A stretch of DNA of 64,000 nt from Massariosphaeria phaeospora (lineage: Eukaryota; Ascomycota; Dothideomycetes; Pleosporales): positions 310,001 to 374,000 of the forward strand of contig JAADJZ010000018.1 of NCBI GenBank assembly GCA_011032825.1. Reading direction: 5' to 3'. Below the pieces are notes generated by a model. It was given only the letters and a program-made list of their open reading frames with translations. It was not told the DNA's origin and made no database searches. Below are positions 49,478 to 61,800 of the stretch, piece by piece; the first letter of the stretch is position 1, and every line of letters starts with the position of its first letter. A program made the position numbers and the translations under genes.

Positions 49478-50758
49478 GGCGACGTCAATTGACGTGCGCG
49501 ACGGTAACAGGCTGTGGTCTGGCCTCCAAGGGGTCGAGGTCTGCGGGGAGTAGTGAATGTGAGTGGAATAGTGCTGTTTAATGGCTGTGTCGATGTCGAT
49601 GAAGCTGCACCTTGCGCTGCACTGGACGCGAAGACGTGGAGAGGCAGGAGGGTCCGAGCTTACCGTGGACGCCACCTGCACCTACCTGCTACCCATAGAC
49701 CTCTGGCATGCCATGTCTATCTTTCGCATCACCACTATCTCAGTTACGGCAGTTGCACGGAGACTTCACCATGGAGTTTCCTTATCTGGCGTGGGTTCAG
49801 GTTCAGAGTCCACTTTCAGCTGGCACCGCGTCACCCGTTAGAGGTCCTCCATGTATTTAACAGCCACCCTCTCCTCTCCTACGGAAGCAACAATAATCAG
49901 TTTGGCAATGGAGAGAGTACCCATCTGGCGGACCATTTAAACGCTTTCTACGGTTATCGCGACCTCTGCTCCGTACTCCGTGAACACCAGCACATGCTAG
50001 CTAGCGTCGTATCACAACTTGCATCTCCTGACGGAAGAGACTCGAACCTTGTTTCTGGAGGCTGCAGAACTGACTGACTTTACCATATGTGCAGTGGGGC
50101 AAGCACAAAATTCAACTGTGAGTGGATACGTACGACCAGTTTTCATTTGCTTAAACCCTGTGTCTTCTGCTGACGTACATATAAAACTCGACGGCGCTGC
50201 CTTTTTGCATTTCTCATCATCTCCGATTCACTCCACCAAACAAACTTTCAATCGCACTAACTTGGACGGCCCCATTATTAATCACAGCGCGTCTTGTACT
50301 TGTACCTACCTCCGAATGACAGCCGAGGTATCTCATATGCTGTTCTAGTCTGATTTAGTAAGAGCCAGACAGCGTACCTCGTAGTTCACTATCCTGTTAT
50401 GTACGTCCTACCACCGAGGCTAATGCTCAAACGGACCATCCGGGACTTGCATGGTACTGAGATGCAGTCCAGAAGCATATGTACTGATACAATAGAGTGC
50501 CTTAGCTTGGCCCATATTCAGTCGGCTATTCACCACAGCAATATGAATGATGATGCAATAATTAATCGCAGAAATCCTAGGCGTTGTTATGGCGCATTTA
50601 TAAGCACTCTTTCTTCACCACGTCTATATCTATCCCATTGTCTTGTCTCTGCGATTCAATTCCGACACAATTCTCTCTCTCTCGCTCGTCCCACCCCCAC
50701 CTTCCCAATAGGTTTTCCATACCTATCTCGTCACTACTGCAATCTCAATACCTTCACG
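49478..50758. other. Intergenic, nothing recognised
   Basis: About 1.3 kb. The frame of the next gene is open upstream to 50399 but contains no family sequence before 50759. A B-box-like GACTCGAACC at 50040-50049 is not part of a plausible tRNA. Confidence 0.4.
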
Positions 50759-51876
50759 ATGGTTCAAAACAAAGGCGTCATCTTCAAACAGGTCCCAAGC
50801 GGCTGGCCAGTCCCAGGTCAGGATCTCGTACTCGAAGACCGCGGCTTTGATCTCGAACAGAATCCTCCTGAAGGTGGCGTAACAGTGAGAAACTACTACG
50901 CGTCTTTCGACCCATACATGCGCGGTCGGATGCGTGAACCCACTATCAAGTCATATGCTCCACCTTTCGACCTCGGCAAGCCGATCACGAATAGCTCTAT
51001 TGTCAAGATTATAAAATCAAACAACTCGAAGTTCTCGCCAGGCGATCTCGTTCTCTCTCCGATACCCTCGCCAATTGAGGAGTACTCAGTGTTTAGTAAA
51101 GAAGCCACGGAGAGTGCACACAAGCTCGAAAACCCGTACAAATTGGACCCCAAAACTTTCCTCGGTGCGCTTGGCATGCCTGGCTTGACTGCTTGGTCCT
51201 CATTCTACGAAATTGGCAAGCCGAAGAAGGGAGAGACTATCTTCATTTCTGCTGCGTCTGGTGCTGTTGGTCAACTGGTCGGTCAACTAGCAAAGCATGA
51301 AGGGTTGAAAGTCATTGGGAGTGTCGGAGATGACAAGAAGCTTGACTACATCACCAAAGAACTCGGCTTCGACGCTGGTTTCAACTACAAGAAGGAGAAG
51401 CCAGCAGATGCGCTTGCACGACTCGCTCCGAAGGGCCTCGACATCTACTATGAGAATGTAGGTGGGGAGCAACTCGAGGCAGCTATCGACCATTTGACTA
51501 ACTTCGGTCGAATCAGTAAGTATTCGATATGCCTGTATACCTGCGTACTAGTGCTAATGCGGTCTCAGTTGCTTGTGGCATGATCAGCCAATACAATGCG
51601 TCAAACGAAGAACGGTACCCGATTCCTAACCTCGAGAACGTTGTGAAGAAGCGGCTCACTATGCGAGGATTCATCGTCAGTGACGCAAACATGGGTCCGA
51701 ATTACGCGAAAGACCACCAGGAGAAGCTGCAGAAGTGGATTGCGGATGGTTCATTCAAGGCCAAAATGAGCGTTACTGAGGGTATTGACAATGCGATTGA
51801 TGGGCTCTTGGGCATGTTCAAGGGACAGAACTTTGGCAAAGCTGTGCTCCAAATCGCAAAATTGGAGCAGGATTAA
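50759..51876 (+). CDS. Zinc-independent MDR oxidoreductase (leukotriene B4 12-hydroxydehydrogenase/2-alkenal reductase-like)
   Basis: Exons 50759-51515 and 51569-51876 (53-nt intron) give 354 aa. N-terminal catalytic part: VRNYYASFDPYMRGRM, then PPFDLGKPI. Rossmann part: IFISAASGAVGQLVGQLAKHEGLKVIGS with the NADPH-binding AxxGxxG pattern, followed by GFNYKK and GLDIYYENVGGE. C-terminal GMISQYN and MRGFIVSD are typical of the subfamily. No catalytic zinc ligands are present. Relatives reduce alpha,beta-unsaturated carbonyls with NADPH, usually for detoxification; the true substrate is unknown. The start was chosen at MVQNKGVIFKQVP, where similarity begins. Confidence 0.9.
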
Positions 51877-52753: not shown

Positions 52754-55700
52754 ATGGAAGGCTTCCAAAACCAGCGTATTTTCGCACGCCCCAACAATAA
52801 TGCCCTCTCGAATAGCCTCGATCCCGGCGCTTCACTCTCTGGCTTTGGGCAACGCTATGATGGTGACGTTCGGCATGATTCCACAGAACGGTCCTTAGTA
52901 TACGGAGCTGTGCTACCAGCAACAGAGGATACAATGGTAATAAAGTGTCTAATCAACACTCTTGTAATTTCTAACGCGAACTAGACATCTTCGTCTATGG
53001 GTTCGGTTCCGATACAGATAATGGCCGATGCAACCGATAGGACTTTTTATACTGTATGCCACACAGCAGCAGCACTCCGCTTTCCACTAACAGGAGGGTA
53101 GAACGATACAACGTTGACTTCTCAGCCCGACATAGGCGGTATCTCTTACATGCCTCTTGATGTTCTGCCTTATGGGAAAAGACGCCAAATCGAACCTGCT
53201 TATACAGAAACGTCCAAACGTCATAGGAGCTCGATCCTACCAACAAGCATGGTCCAGACCCACGAAGTTGACTGCTATACAATCAATTCTGGAGACTTCG
53301 CCCTCATTCGGCTCTTACTTCATGCCAATCGTATAGTGGACTTAGACGACCCTGAGTACCTCAAGTCTGTCAGCATTATCACCGAAGTCCCCTACGAGTT
53401 TGTTCATCGTTGGCTTCGTGCAAACGCTGGCGAGATATTATGTGAGGGACCCGTCGTGGTATCTGAGGGCGAAATATTCCGGGTCTGGGCTCAACATCAT
53501 CCTGGACAGGAGCCCAATCCCACACAGTTGACTCGATTAGCGCTTTTCACTGGCCTCACCTATGCTTACATCCACAATTGGTTCCATGAGTATCAGATCC
53601 AATTCCTCAAGGACGGAACGGATCTCAGTACAGTGCAGCCGCAGGTACATGGCCGCCTTTCACAGTCTGAAGGACTTATGACCAGCAATCAAGCTACTAT
53701 CAGCTTAGGTGCTAGCGAAAGTCCTGACGCTGCCTCGTTGGCTACATCCGCGTCTGAATGTGCCTTAGGCGCCAAAAAGTGCACGAACGGAAAATCCTTT
53801 GAAGAGATCGAGTCCAACAAGCGCAAGCTACGGGATGCAGAGAGACCATTTTCTTGCGTGTTAGGTTGCGGGGCCACGTTCAAAGATAAAGCAGGCCTGA
53901 AGAGACACGACGAACAATCTTATCCACAGTCTGTGTGGTTCTGCACCCTTGGGCATACCATCAAGCTTGGTAAGGACAGTGAGAGATGCACTGCCAAGGA
54001 TTGTCACAATGGGAATCCAGACAAAGAGCATTGGCTGACGTATCACCCGGGGTCAGATCCGTGTAACAAGAAGCCTCTGGAAGATCGGGTATACTTCCGG
54101 CGAGATTATTTTCGGCAACACTTAGTCAAGTCTCATAACCTCTTAAGACTCACCACTAAGTACTTGGACGCTTCGAGATTTGCGGTGAACAACGACTCTT
54201 TTCCCAAGGCATGCGACTTCTGCGAATACCGATTTCTTGACTATGACGACCGAATTGATCACCTAGCTGCTCATCTTGAGAAAGGTGAAATTTTGAGAGA
54301 AACAACGAGGTCTATTCAACTACATGATATTGTTCAAGGTGATGGGCCTAATGAACAAGATGAAGAATCAGTGCATGACACCGATGACGGAGGTGGCAAG
54401 GTGGACGATGGAAGCGAGAGTGAGAGCGAAAGTGAAAGTGAAGATGAGGATGAGGACGAAGACGAAGACGAAGACGAAGACGAAGACAGCGACAACGATG
54501 ACGACGACGACGAAAATAACGAAAATGATGAAAACGATCAAGGCGGCGGAAGCGGCACAGGCAGCAGCGCTGGTGGCCAGTTTGGTGAATTATTCTCGGA
54601 CAATTTCCTCAACGACCTTTACCCGAGCCAGTATGGAGGAGATCAAGATGATGACGCCTCTGGTAATCCAAGCGACACATTCTTCGGCTACGGATTCGCC
54701 TCATCACTGCAATGCATTGCAGATGCTCTTATTTACATTCACACGCAAAAACGGCGATCTTCCCAATCAAAACACGATCTACTAAATTCCAATGTGGTAT
54801 CGAATTACCTCAAGGTAATGGAGACTAACGCAACTGTCTTACTCTTCCGCACGTCAAAGAATGGTCGTGGAGTGTCCGTTGCGAAATTTCCACGCAATGA
54901 CCTCTTTCTTTCGGAACGATTGGGAGTCGGAGCGACAGGATATGTGCACAAGGTCTCGTTCAATAGTCATCCGAAGAAGTTTGCTGCCTTAAAAGAGGCT
55001 CCGCTCAACTCGTCTTACGGTTTTCGAAACACGCAAATGGTAGTGGACTCCATTTTCCGTGAGTACTCAGTGATGAGTGCGTTGGAACACGCCCATATTG
55101 CTCCTGGGTACGGACTGATGCTTCGATCTTCTCATCTTGGACTTCTCATGCCTCTGGCCTCCTCGGATTTGGGACAGGCTATCCAGAGTAGACATGACGA
55201 TGGATCTCCACTTCCGTACACTTACGCTCATCTTAACTGTCTTCTCTCTGCGTTGGCATATCTTCATGATCATAAGATAAGGCACCGGGACATTAAACCT
55301 GCGAACATTCTATTACGTGGGACGAATCTTTATTTCACCGATTTCGGTAGCAGCTGCGACTTCTCTATCGTAGGCGTTCCGGATGCTGGATTTACACCGA
55401 AATATGCCGCACCAGAGTTGATCGACCGAAATCTCGGCATAGATGAGGGCGCCTACTCAGATGTATTCTCTCTTGGATGCGTCTTCACTGAGATGATGCT
55501 TGCTTTGGCTTTGCCAGGGGACAGAGAATACAAACGTATACGTCAGCTCAGGTATTTCCCGTCAATTTTCGAACACGAAAGTTTGTTCTCCAGGCTCTTG
55601 GATCTCGATTCGGAGAAATCGAAAGGAAAGCCAAGTGAGGGACAGGTTGCTGCCATCCGTGCCATGAGGTCAACGTCACCTATGGATCGACCGAGTCCGG

Positions 55701-57707
55701 CAAATATCATGCACTATTTCCCGTCGAGAGACTGTTGCAAGCCATCGGGACCTCGATCCACAAGACTTACGATCCCATCACCAGCAGATTTGCTCGTTGG
55801 AACCCAGAAGGTCGATACAGATACAGAAGCAAATAACGCAAGTATTGCCGAGGGAAAAGGTAATTGCAGCAACAAATGCTTATCACTGTGATAAACTAAC
55901 ACAACCAGGTTTGTTAGTTGATAAGACTCATACGTGGGCACAAAAACATATTTCTTTGGCCCCTCTGGAAAGAGAACATCGATACCAGCCTTTGCAGTCT
56001 GCACGCGAGATTCGTCTACTACAGCTTCTCTCCACAGAGGATAAAACATCGCCTGTACAGTGTCGCTGGCATACTGTAACACTCCAGGCCCGAGAACATC
56101 AATACGAAGCGCTATCGTACTGCTGGGGTAGCTCACACGAGACTCAGAAGGTCTATACCGATACCGGGTTCGTGAGAGTGAATAAAAATCTTCACACAGC
56201 CCTTCGAGATCTTCGCAATACAGGTTCAGAGAGGTTTCTCTGGGCCGACGCTATATGTATCAACCAAGCGGACATTCAGGAACGAAATCATCAAGTTTCG
56301 TTGATGAAATCTATATACAGCTCAGCGGCACGGGTTATAGTATGGCTCGGTGAAGCTGATGAGTATACTGACCATTTGGTAAAGGCAGAGGTCAAGCTGC
56401 GAAATACCCAAGCATGGTCTCGCTCTACTCGGACGACGGATCACTCTTGCCTCACACAAGATGAGCGTTGTGCAATCAATAAGTTCTTTCAACGACCATG
56501 GTTCTCACGCCTATGGGTTGTTCAGGATGCTGTTTTAGCTCGGACGGGGCGATTTGTAATCGGACATATTGAGCTAGAAACCGATCTTCTCGGTATGGAC
56601 ACTGAAAACGGGTGCTGTGCGACGTACTACCGACAAGACAATCTTGCAGACACTGATTGGTGTAGAAGGGGGCCATTATCCGTGATTGACTACTTGCGCC
56701 ATCGGCTAGGCAAACTATCCTTGCTGGAGCTTCTCGAGCGAATGCGTGGGTATCAAGCAAGTGACGCGCGGGACAAGGTCTACGCATTGTTGGCTCTGGC
56801 AAAGGACTCAGACCGGCTCCAGATACTTCCAGACTACAACTCAAGCGTCACCGAGGTTTTCGCGCGTGTAGCTCTGGCTATCATTCGGCACTCCCAAGAG
56901 CTCAGCGTTCTATCATACGTCCATCCGCTTCCAGCACCAGACCCCCATTCGTCTTCTTCATGGCCATCCTGGGTTCCCGATTGGACCCAAAGCAAGCCCC
57001 ACCGCCCTCTTCTGTCAAAGGAATTCGATGCATCCCTGCAGCGGCAAGCCCAACCAGTCCAGGCTGATGGTCTAAGACTCATGCTGACCGGAGTCCTCGT
57101 CGGAACAATCAAGCACCTGCACGAAGCCCCTTGGCTCAACCCAGGCTGGAGCCCTGGGAACGCCGTCTTCGAAACCAAGAAACAACGCGCGCTCGAGACC
57201 GGCAGAGCCGTTCTCGAGATGTGCCGTACTTGGATTTCTTCTGCCAACTTGGTCGGTACAGGGACGAATCAGAAGCGCGATTGCCACAAGGGCTGGAGCG
57301 CTGAAGTGGCGAGTAACGTGGCATGCGCGGGACTGACTCTGACTTCGAACAAATCGTGGGTCAGACACAAGTTCTCGGACGACCTGTACGACTCGCTCAA
57401 GTCGTCGGACGCCCTATACGACGGGGTCATGTTTGCGTCCCTGGCGGACCTTTATTGCACTTCTGTCGCCATACGTAGTGCGATGGGCCGACCTTTCATC
57501 ACGCGAGATGGGGATGTCGGCCTCGGGCCTGCCGCTGCGCGGACAGGTGATGTTGTTGTTGTTCTGTGTGGAGCTCGGGTGCCGTTTGTTTTGCGTGCGA
57601 ATGCTTCTGGGGAATACGTTCTTGTAGGCGAGTGTTATGTTCACGGGGCTATGGATGGAGAGATGGTGGGATCTGGGGCCGAGTTTACTGAGTTTGTTCT
57701 CGTTTAA
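52754..57707 (+). CDS. Multidomain protein: homeodomain-like, C2H2-like fingers, protein kinase and HET domain
   Basis: Exons 52754-52936, 52985-53053, 53102-55859 and 55909-57707 give about 1602 aa; all three introns have CTAAC branch points and agree in phase. Approximate order: homeodomain-like helix (208-251, TRLALFTGLTYAYIHNWF); zinc-finger region (333-480, PFSCVLGCGATFKDKAGLKRH and CDFCEYRFLDYDDRIDHLAAH); acidic tract (522-563); Ser/Thr kinase (688-950) with LGVGATGYV, Lys715 in FAALKE, HRDIKPAN (Asp814), TDFG (Asp831), AAPE and a SLGCVFTEM helix; then HET (1069-1155) with YEALSYCWG, LWADAICINQ and ARVIVWLGEADE. Kinase motifs are complete, so it is probably active. HET domains trigger incompatibility-type cell death when activated. 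The HET frame has no ATG before its core, so it cannot stand alone. Function of the whole is inferred. Confidence 0.85.
54417..54525 (+). repeat. GAN-rich coding repeat (poly-acidic tract)
   Basis: Runs of GAAAGT/GAGAGC then GAAGAC units encode Ser-Glu followed by Asp/Glu repeats between the zinc-finger and kinase parts. Such repeats are prone to length variation. Confidence 0.8.
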
Positions 57708-57850: not shown

Positions 57851-57980
57851 AGCTTTTCAAGTGTCCTTTACAGCTTCCACACCGGCTCATCGTAGCCACA
57901 AGCTTGATCCGTCCACCAGTCTACCCGCTTCAGCTTTTCAACTGTCCTTTACAGCTGCCACACCGGCTCCTTGTGGCCAT
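57851..57980. repeat. Imperfect direct repeat, two copies of about 49 bp, offset 81 bp
   Basis: 57851-57899 and 57932-57980 match at roughly nine bases in ten (AGCTTTTCAA.TGTCCTTTACAGCT...). The second copy includes the stop and last codons of the adjacent minus-strand gene. The first copy would encode a nearly identical ending (DEPVWKL stop versus KEPVWQL stop). Confidence 0.8.
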
Positions 57981-58848
57981 GGCGACTCCACACTAGGTAG
58001 CCCTCATTGATCTTGCGGACGCATACGTTGTTCATAGCGATGCAGTAATCGCACATGAAGTTGAAGTGACTCTCACCTCCCGACTCTTTGAACGTTGTAG
58101 GTCTCCTCCGCGATTTGCGCTCCAGACACAGATTTTCTTGTCCCACTGCCTGCTCCCTCCACGTGTGCATAGTCGCCAGAACCTGGAGTTTGACAGTGCG
58201 AGGTACTTCACGTGCAGGTATGAAGGCCATGTCCTTGATGAACCAGATGAACTTGCCGCTTTTCAATGGCGCGGCCTCGTCCCTGTTGTCTGCTAGGAGG
58301 CGGACGGTCGTAAGGCGGTGGTATTTCCAGCGCGGTGTGGTGAAGTAGTCGGTACGGGGGGGAAGAGATTGCGCAGGCGAAGACGATCGAGATCTAGCAA
58401 GACGAGGCCTTTTGCTTGACGAGTTGGAAGCGGTGTCTTGGCTGGCCGCGTAAGAAGAGCTTTTTCGACCTTTCTCAAGCTTTGTCTGAAGCACGGCGTT
58501 CTCTGCTTTTGTCTCCTCGGAAATCTTCTTGAGTAGTTCTTTTTCCGCTTTCTGAACAGCTAGCTCTTCTCGCAGTGCAGCGAGCTCGTCATCTTGACTG
58601 CGAGGGGACTCCGCACGGTTCAAGGCAGCAAGTTGCTGAGCAACCTCGTGCTTCACTGCGGTTTTTATCTCATCGAGCACGTTCTCGAGGCCGGTTCGGA
58701 GTTCCTGCTGCAGATGGTCCTGCACATGGGCATCTTCTCGCGCTCTCTGCAGGGCCGCGGTCCTCTTCCTCTCTTTGAGCGCGAGGAACGTCGCTGATAC
58801 ACTCTCGCGTCTCCTGTTCCGTATCAGTCGATGCCATGATCTGTACAT
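57949..58848 (-). CDS. Coiled-coil protein with C-terminal Cys-rich motif
   Basis: Single exon, 299 aa from the ATG at 58848; an extra upstream exon is possible. Residues about 20-140 form a long charged coiled coil (ALKERKRTAALQRAREDAH, then LAALREELAVQKAEKELLKK). A Ser/Arg-rich linker follows, then a C-terminal domain with FIWFIKDMAFIPA, NFMCDYCIAMNNVCVRK and WSRHGHKEPVWQL. The CxxC...C pattern suggests a small zinc-binding or DNA-binding-like module seen in lineage-specific fungal proteins; I cannot name it. The 3' end is duplicated downstream (see the 49-bp repeat), suggesting a once larger tandem family. Confidence 0.6.
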   Translation of the reverse strand: MYRSWHRLIRNRRRESVSATFLALKERKRTAALQRAREDAHVQDHLQQELRTGLENVLDEIKTAVKHEVAQQLAALNRAESPRSQDDELAALREELAVQKAEKELLKKISEETKAENAVLQTKLEKGRKSSSYAASQDTASNSSSKRPRLARSRSSSPAQSLPPRTDYFTTPRWKYHRLTTVRLLADNRDEAAPLKSGKFIWFIKDMAFIPAREVPRTVKLQVLATMHTWREQAVGQENLCLERKSRRRPTTFKESGGESHFNFMCDYCIAMNNVCVRKINEGYLVWSRHGHKEPVWQL

Positions 58849-61800
58849 ACGGGTTGTACTTACGCTGCTTCACTCCCCAACAACACGACGCCTTCTTTGC
58901 TATCGGGAAGTGTGTCCGGCTTGCGTTTACCCTTCGACCTTGGATCAGGCCAGAGCTCATTCATACCTGCAGGTGTTTGTGTCGGGCCCTGCGATATGGT
59001 GGCGGTGTGGACGAAGAAGGCCGGTGACGTGAAGGTGACTGATAGGGCAAGCGCCAAGCCTTCGCGACGCAAACGCTCCTGCCGCTTGAGAAAAGTCAGC
59101 TCGGATTTGCAAGAACGGCTCTATTCAGACGGTACCTATGCAGGATGCATCGCTTTTCGTGCAATCGTAACCCACTCGAACGCTACCCTGCGAGGTAGGA
59201 CACATGACATTTTGTCAAAGACAGAACAAGATATGATAGTGCATTCGTAGTTACCAAGCTATGTAATTGCCATGGCAAGTCAAAGTGCATGTTTGGATCT
59301 CTTACCTTGTACGAAGAGCCTATTTTGGCAACAAGAAATGCGAAGAAAGCGCATGGTCAGTACACTGGATCAGGACTCAGTATAGGAACAGCAGGAAGAT
59401 GCCAATGTGCAAAACAAAAAAAATAGTTACGCGGAATAAGAGAAGTGAAGCAACATGTTTGCGGGTCCGATAGCGAGTTGGGGTATATAGTTACGCTCAG
59501 TGTGGAACAGGATGTTGTTTTGCCTTTTAAGTGTCTGCAGCTGGTACGTCGTAGATTAAGACTGGGTAACCTCAAGTTTGAATGCCCGATTTTTCCGAGC
59601 TATCGTTGTCTGGTATTCATTAGAGAAGCTTATGATAGAGTGGCGTTCACAACGATATCAGCAATATGGCCGTGGATGTTTCCCGCCTATCAATCTCATA
59701 ACCTATGGTATGATATATCATCTTCTTCTTGCGACGCAGGTATAGCTCCAGCGCTTGAGCCTCTCGTCCAGAATATGTATGATGTACATATAGCCAAATC
59801 CTAGTCTTGAGCATCCTGTCATGAGACGTCCATGACTCTATGGTCAGATAGTCTTCGCAATTTTCTTTGTCTAGACGGTAGGCGTGCTGTCCACAACCAG
59901 CGAGAAATCGGCTACAGGATTTGGATCCCAGCAGCAATCGAGTGTGCTTCATGGTGACTAATGTGATCGTGAAGATCTGGGGATGTGATTGATGGAGTGA
60001 AAATGAAGGATGAAGGAGAGGTGAAGTCGGGTTCTTGCATCAGATCGATCGCGTATCGGAAGTGAGTCCAACATAGGATTAGTGTGATCGTTCAAATTAG
60101 ATCATATCAACACCGAATGTTGGTGGCTTTAAGTGACGAAACTTACATGTTTTTGGCACAAGATTGATTTAACAAAGTAGCTGAGGCTTAAACTGTTAAC
60201 ATTCCTTTTGCATCTAGTTTGCCAAACTGTATACGCGATATGAAAGGGTTAGAAGAACATGTCCGAGCGGGGCAGCCTTGCAATGATCCAAGGGAGACTA
60301 GACTTATGCTTTACGGACCACTCTGCTATTTCCGTGTGTACGGGGTCGTGTCTGGGTGCTTTCTATCTCTTTCAGAAGTATCGTTGTCTTGTAAAATATG
60401 GTCGGCGCCATCTTCGGTTTCATCGATATGTGACGCTCGAGGGAGGAACCTGTAGGAGCCAAACGTGATTGCTATTAGTTGAAGAGGCCAGGTTTGATAG
60501 TCAGGTGGTGCTGTGTGTGTTGGCTGAATCCCGCAGCTCTAGCCGGGCCTTGTAGTAGGCTTGTATAGGTGCGGGCATAGAGGGGACACAAAATAGCGAA
60601 CCCACCCCTCAGCCATCGGGGAAATATGTCAGTGGTGTTCATGGTAGGCATGGTCTCAAACGACGCTGAACAGGTAATCGCTGATGGAAGATGCTGAGGT
60701 CGACACTTCCATACCAGACCATCTGGAAAGCTAGTACTAAGGTGACATCATGACGCGTCTTGTAAACAATCAGATATAAATGCGTGACACGGAATAACAA
60801 GTGGACGTACAAAACTGTCCGCATATAATCGAGATTGGGAAGCCAAAGGAAATGACGGCGCTGTGCTACCTACTTGGTTGCCGAGATATCCAAGAAACGT
60901 ACATGGTAACTCCACAGCGCTCTCAAACAGCAGGAGATCTGTACGCCGTTCGCCTACGAGGCGGTTATGTGAAGTCGTAGGTGGCAGGCAAAATAAGGGC
61001 ACCACGGGTTCATAGGCAGACAATGGCGGGCGCCTGAAGTGTGCGCACAGGTTCCGGCGCTAAGCACCTTGATGGTTGTTGTTCCGGCACCGCTGCGGCC
61101 TGGTGGAGACTCGCAGCCCCTTTGTGGTGTTGATCCCAGCCTTGCGGGAGTTGGAAGTGCACAAGAGACGCTGATCCCGAGCGAGGCCCCTTTTGGCAGG
61201 CGCGAGGGTTCCTGTGACCGCGTTGCCAAGGCCGGCAGTGCCGGCAGGCTTCGGCGCTTTAAAACAACCGTCAGGCCAAAACACCAACAGAACAGCCCCA
61301 ACTCCAGAGCCCATGCCACCATCACGCCCGCCCCGAGCCCGTCGCCAATGCGCAGCCAAACGCGCGCTGCTGCCAGGTCTCGTGCGGCGCGGTTGAGGCG
61401 TCGCATCGTCCACGCCGTCTTCGCCGCGCGCACCCTAGGGCGATGTGCGCAATGTGACAGGGGCTCCGGCTCCATGATTGATCGTCCCCAAGCCAAAGGC
61501 ATTGATCGTCTCTGTCTCGGGTGTGGTTGGCTTTCGAGTCTGACTAGAGATGAGGATCGCCGTAGCGCTCTCGGGTTTGAATACCCTCTCGCGCGCACTC
61601 GATGTAGCTCTGTGCCTTTCTTCGGTGATACTCGCCTTTTTCCCACCGTTGCTACCAACCTCGCCGCTTTGTCGCCCCACGTAGTAGCACCACCGACGCC
61701 GTCGGTTTCAATGGCCCTGAAATCTTTCTCTTCGTCTGTCTTTTGTTGGCTGTTGCGAACATCGTTGCCGTCTTTCCTATCCACACCCTTTACCCCAGCC

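Follow-up and report, generated by a model that had tools for sequence, protein, structure and literature searches.

Does a protein kinase that lies just ahead of a HET incompatibility domain belong to the same gene, and if so, what kind of protein would the two domains make together? The question is raised by a locus at positions 52754-57707 of a 64,000-nucleotide stretch of the Massariosphaeria phaeospora genome (the window; contig JAADJZ010000018.1, here C10, 310001-374000), for which the original prediction had proposed a kinase-HET fusion in one four-exon gene. The locus was compared with the whole genome (42.1 Mb, 51 contigs) and with relatives in other fungi. The encoded protein shows, in this order, a homeodomain-like part, a C2H2-like zinc-finger part, an acidic linker, a Ser/Thr kinase and a C-terminal HET domain, an architecture that, judged by sequence, almost certainly represents a real and conserved protein family. 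The kinase-HET join is no error of the gene model, since kinase and HET lie in a single frame in a paralog and the order recurs in proteins predicted separately.

The window gene most likely encodes 1,594 residues in four exons, all of them, like the protein features given below, on the + strand. Exon 3 (53126-55859) carries the homeodomain-like and C2H2-like parts, the acidic linker and the kinase in one frame, with finger module and kinase inside an open frame of 929 codons (53102-55891), and exon 4 (55909-57707) carries a linker, the HET domain and a HET-associated C-terminal region. The intron between them (intron 3, 55860-55908) is 49 nt long and of phase 1, with the signals GT...CTAAC...CAG, in which CTAAC is a branch-like site; splicing it is required because the kinase frame ends with a stop at 55891. 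This phase-matched intron had been described before and is confirmed here, and the same holds for the lack of an ATG ahead of the HET core: the HET frame extends over 55668-57707, the domain begins at its codon 146, and the first ATG (56304, codon 213) lies inside the domain. Exons 1 and 2, which rest on frame continuity and splice signals, are less certain: 6 models with one intron and, after filtering, 12 with two introns were listed. The probable exon 1 (52754-52936) starts with the ATG at 52754, other splice choices being possible, and the probable exon 2 (52985-53053) is followed by two acceptors that fit intron 2 (53101 or 53125). The residues TMTSS, which span the exon 1/2 join, are also present in the relative P0009 (judged by eye), homology to which starts at residue 15; no domain was recognised in the N-terminus encoded by exon 1.

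Both catalogue domains are well supported. The kinase (PF00069, 54911-55714; E 4.6e-31, 108.6 bits, cut-off 31.7) is complete, as had been claimed, with the glycine loop GVGATGYV, the catalytic Lys (54992), HRDIKPAN (55283), DFG (55340) and APE (55409), and by its sequence would be a eukaryotic-type Ser/Thr kinase of the RD type. The HET domain (PF06985, 56103-56525; E 2.3e-35, 122.5 bits, cut-off 22.5) scores highest among the 106 HET matches in the genome and has the conserved motifs LSYCWG, WADAICINQ and RPWFSRLWVVQ, so that both its Pfam match and its motifs would place the protein among HET proteins. Against the PDB, its predicted model gave no reliable match (TIR is missing from the rows listed, which proves nothing) and its sequence none at E up to 1. 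A Pfam scan of the two large frames, which did not cover the two short first exons, found no NACHT or NB-ARC domain at E up to 1, and none was found at E up to 0.1 in three relatives with the same module order (P0009, P0010 and P0067). By these searches the window protein would thus fall outside the fungal NLR/STAND proteins, as defined by NACHT or NB-ARC plus C-terminal repeats.

Within the genome, a kinase with a HET domain at most 400 bp downstream on the same strand occurs at 2 of 117 kinase places (114 of the 136 in the main kinase list and 3 from another search, compared with all 106 HET places), namely the window gene and a paralog, where about 0.06 such pairs would be expected by chance; the remaining 22 kinase places have no HET match within 15 kb. 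The paralog, L029 (full length at 1950-6857 of C10:430000-438000, minus strand), is about 64 kb from the window gene, and its kinase and HET domain (C10:432300-433898, minus strand) share one uninterrupted 859-residue frame, with no intron where the window gene has intron 3. It is modelled as five exons and 1,534 residues with the module order of the window gene, to which it is 23-24% identical where aligned, with matches at 3e-19 (fingers) and 2e-17 (kinase through HET). As kinase and HET lie in one frame in the paralog, and fingers and kinase in one frame in the window gene, each junction is intronless in one copy. Directly upstream of the paralog is a further C2H2-type finger stretch (L029 7873-8001, C10:437872-438057, minus strand). 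A HET-less homeodomain-finger-kinase gene (L120/L137) is found on C4 at about 842000-845400, minus strand, and a separate HET match (C4:848730-849158) lies about 3.4 kb upstream of it on the same strand. One more locus, L033 (4395-6199; C10:about 169.4-171.2 kb), was rejected as an instance of the layout: its kinase, which is damaged (DFR for DFG, APA for APE, a stop within the match), precedes the finger module in reversed order, and the HET gene there is separate, 4.4 kb on.

Relatives in other fungi were searched for with window residues 670-1230, and among the 120 matches listed of 1,246 four have both Pkinase and HET Pfam domains, which is not a census. The best-scoring relative among those listed, P0009 (Lophiotrema nucula; Pleosporales, Dothideomycetes; 1,685 residues), aligns in three blocks, the N-terminus (1e-46), the kinase (8e-43) and the HET part to the last residue (2e-87; 37.5% identity in exon 4, over residues 1006-1594). 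P0010 gives one continuous alignment over window residues 287-1397, across the kinase-HET junction (E 1.7e-80), and P0067 is a close relative of the paralog (9e-168). These three are separately predicted proteins that share the module order of the window protein. Homeodomain-finger-kinases that show no HET match are P0064 and P0082. In P0026 the same three modules are followed by a short tail, where no HET turned up, and taking this protein for a HET gene cut short was not upheld, the tail matching no HET protein in the comparison set. A profile of the finger module, with members included in its build, recovered only P0010, P0026, P0009, P0067, P0064 and P0082 among 159 proteins. A profile of three relatives was swamped by kinases (P0009 being the only known member in its 32 rows), and one further search gave only 8 weak kinase matches.

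How rare the combination is had been left undecided in the original prediction, together with the suggestion of a domain-architecture search; the two genes of this genome and the four listed proteins now give a partial answer, and one of the four, P0044 (Scytalidium lignicola, an annotated protein of 2,362 residues), is built in another order from a HET, an ankyrin, a NACHT-type and a kinase part. It was rejected as the same architecture on account of its N-terminal HET and of a kinase that is not in the group of 39 rows to which the fused kinases belong (see below), and may represent either another architecture, a remarkable NLR, or merged gene models. As separate observations, the kinase-HET linker of P0009 contains an additional C2H2-like finger (residues 1021-1052), and P0066, P0086, P0101 and P0107 combine Hsp70 (PF00012) with a kinase of the same broad group, another odd fusion.

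With paralog and relatives at hand, the possibility that the intron call falsely joined two adjacent genes, a homeodomain-finger-kinase and a HET gene, can be weighed. The stop in the kinase frame and a HET frame that opens upstream of it would suit such a pair, yet the HET core has no preceding ATG, the paralog holds both domains in a single frame and P0009, P0010 and P0067 carry both kinase and HET; on these grounds this explanation was rejected, and we assign it a very small probability. The claim of one gene of about four exons thus stands, with the single frame of the paralog and the P0010 alignment across the junction in its favour.

The first 500 residues turned out to hold a third module, which was missing from the earlier description. 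It begins with two homeodomain-like segments, a (residues 140-192, 53291-53449) and b (residues 198-248, 53465-53617), the former included in a profile comparison with transcription-factor homeodomains. The homeodomain-like set reaches an hhalign probability of 94.3 against these homeodomains; structure matches cover both segments together without separating the two, and segment b has a weak Pfam Homeodomain match below the cut-off (E 0.19, profile positions 23-49). The C2H2-like zinc-finger module follows (residues 320-471, 53831-54286). Its Pfam C2H2 matches are below the cut-offs; it aligns with P0009, P0010, P0067 and homeobox-C2H2 genes of the same genome and is recovered from the transcription-factor query L024 at E 1.7e-12, so that by homology the window protein carries the C2H2 module of the homeobox-C2H2 transcription-factor family. 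An acidic low-complexity linker, recognised from the sequence (residues 511-558, 54404-54547), lies between this module and the kinase. Another finger gene belonging to this family, L118 (C51, about 623 kb), has a homeodomain-like stretch without the recognition residues, and no kinase was found in the DNA examined around it.

Does this module still bind DNA? If so, through its remaining fingers or an altered homeodomain, the protein would be a stress regulator bound to chromatin or promoters whose kinase signals on DNA, with HET as an accessory interaction domain. The clear relationship to homeobox-C2H2 proteins speaks for this, as do the module's zinc ligands, most of which are invariant or nearly so. 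However, the DNA-contact residues Asn51 and Arg53 are absent in 11 of 11 homeodomain-like segments of eight fused proteins (in segment b of the window protein they are replaced, WFHEYQ), although retained in 4/4 relatives of the same genome with a Pfam homeobox, and the second His of finger 1 is missing in all five HET carriers; we consider a DNA-bound regulator unlikely, if by no means negligible. The same degenerate finger 1 and recognition residues might instead mark a decaying gene or pseudogene, but the 2,734-nt and 1,799-nt coding exons are free of stops, the kinase and HET motifs are intact and relatives show the same losses, so that decay is hardly credible.

Trees were used to ask how often HET domains joined these kinases. 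The HET tree comprised 89 rows (60 of the 106 own-genome HET places, with the paralog's longer copy substituted, the window protein, P0009, P0010, P0067 and 25 others), and its inner support is weak, 52 of 86 inner branches being below 80. The fused HETs are split in this tree: those of the window protein, P0009 and P0010 occupy one large half, those of the paralog and P0067 the other half. Approximately unbiased (AU) tests on 58 rows, from which the 25 others and six rows with long branches had been removed, rejected a single clade of the five fused HETs (p-AU 0.022); one clade of window, paralog, P0009 and P0067 was borderline and not clearly rejected (0.061), and a clade of window and P0009 was acceptable with or without P0010. 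In a 60-row kinase tree the fused kinases lie inside a 39-row group (support 100), which seems prone to fusion, since kinases from ankyrin- or Hsp70-containing proteins also lie in it. The window kinase pairs with P0009 (94) within a set that contains P0010 and P0026 (96), and the paralog pairs with P0067 (99) beside the HET-less P0064 (92). With 30 kinase rows, a single clade of the five HET carriers was weakly rejected (0.039), and one clade was not rejected for six with P0026 (0.235) or for all eight homeodomain-finger-kinases tested (0.24). The groups tested, of HETs and kinases alike, were chosen after the first trees had been seen. The fused HETs would thus belong to two HET subfamilies, which hints at more than one joining event or at swapping rather than settling between a single and a repeated origin; the simplest reading, held with moderate confidence, is that a single homeodomain-finger-kinase chassis acquired HETs from two subfamilies or exchanged one for the other.

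What might such a protein do? The original prediction had placed the kinase in the position of sensor or transducer. This holds in part: the kinase lies mid-protein, and the N-terminal module is the better candidate for input. After that module had come to light, the kinase as sensor was no longer taken to be the simplest reading. Our preferred explanation, tentative and held at slightly less than an even chance, is a one-piece, NOD-less death or defence receptor with a pseudo-transcription-factor bait, a kinase relay and a HET executor, the mechanism being pieced together from the modules. More specifically, the N-terminal module, related to the homeobox-C2H2 transcription factors of fungi, would no longer read DNA as its relatives do; it may act as a bait, or offer a surface to which a cue of stress or non-self can bind. 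Once bound, the cue would release or cluster the kinase, which could phosphorylate itself, the acidic linker, the kinase-HET linker or a partner; and phosphorylation would free the C-terminal HET, which would then kill the cell or hyphal compartment or arrest it. The window protein might, as had been proposed, couple self/non-self recognition to phosphorylation. Among the five HET carriers the catalytic Lys (by eye), Asp, Asn and the DFG Asp are conserved throughout (DFS replaces DFG in P0010), and four are non-RD (HMD, HHD, HGD, HMD), the window protein alone being RD. The non-RD type is common in receptor kinases of innate immunity.

Roles could also be reversed, with the kinase as output and the HET domain as a regulator that detects or produces a small molecule and adjusts the kinase, without any cell death. 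The intact kinase motifs of the window protein and the existence of HET-less homeodomain-finger-kinases would fit; set against them are the reports that HET is sufficient for cell death and that 4 of 6 studied N. crassa incompatibility systems need a HET protein (PMC10197012), and we hold a kinase output to be improbable. A classical heterokaryon-incompatibility (het) locus, whose polymorphic alleles recognise each other after hyphal fusion, would suit the presence of a HET domain and the three HET matches within about 67 kb of C10, two of which are the window gene and its paralog; we give it a low probability.

A bolder version of the receptor reading, possible and on balance doubtful, is an unrecognised class of fungal NOD-less immune receptor, in which a decoy transcription-factor module with lost DNA-contact residues, a kinase and a HET death domain are combined and two HET subfamilies sit on the same bait-kinase chassis, so that the effector end would be interchangeable; integrated decoys and kinase fusion proteins would be its parallels in plants. 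The family offers a defined architecture of three separable modules: a putative bait open to testing, a kinase in which a change of one residue would abolish activity, and a HET domain amenable to assay. Should the N-terminal module imitate a homeobox-C2H2 regulator as a decoy, the attacker of that regulator (e.g. a mycovirus or a competitor) becomes a concrete target to seek. Upstream of the gene lies an ordinary zinc-type oxidoreductase (ADH_N_2, ADH_zinc_N; 50354-51583, + strand), and 3′ of the gene a 306-codon open frame on the minus strand (57949-58869) without a Pfam match at E up to 1.

Among known systems, the HET-domain proteins named in PMC10197012 and PMC12881547 (the HNWD family HET-E/D/R, TOL, PIN-C and HET-6) have in common with the window protein a canonical HET with LSYxWG and AICINQ motifs. 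In contrast to HET-E/D/R and the like, no NACHT or WD40 was found in the window protein, and its HET is C-terminal, behind the kinase and the homeodomain-finger module. In fungal NLRs, kinase and HET each occur as effector domains, and Pkinase is on the published list of their N-terminal domains (PMC4986451 and PMC9815663), whereas the window protein has both in one protein without a NOD domain. No description of kinase and HET in one protein was found in open-access literature on HET and kinase or on the homeobox-C2H2 module (including passages of PMC9815663, PMC4986451, PMC12881547, PMC10197012 and PMC9210730), most subscription literature lying outside the search. The modules are all known; their combination and its conservation appear to be new. 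Four genes of the same genome (L024, L028, L031 and L128) have a homologous homeodomain and C2H2 module in the order of the window protein, compared with which the fused members have lost Asn51/Arg53 and mostly the finger-1 His and carry a kinase and, in some, a HET.

Convergence with plant immunity is suggested by two further comparisons. Plant kinase fusion proteins, which reportedly include Lr9 and Sr43, are immunity proteins with a kinase fused to another part, as in the window protein. For Pm4 of wheat, another of these proteins, the detected effector is described as bound and phosphorylated by Pm4 itself (PMC12830362). The plant proteins differ from the window protein, for which an immune role is putative, in kingdom, in their partner domains and in having no HET. 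Plant NLRs with integrated decoys, of which BED is reportedly one case and WRKY is another, differ from it in having an NLR scaffold; they would resemble it, if the decoy role suggested by its lost DNA-contact residues is correct, in placing a DNA-binding-type domain inside a death-inducing receptor.

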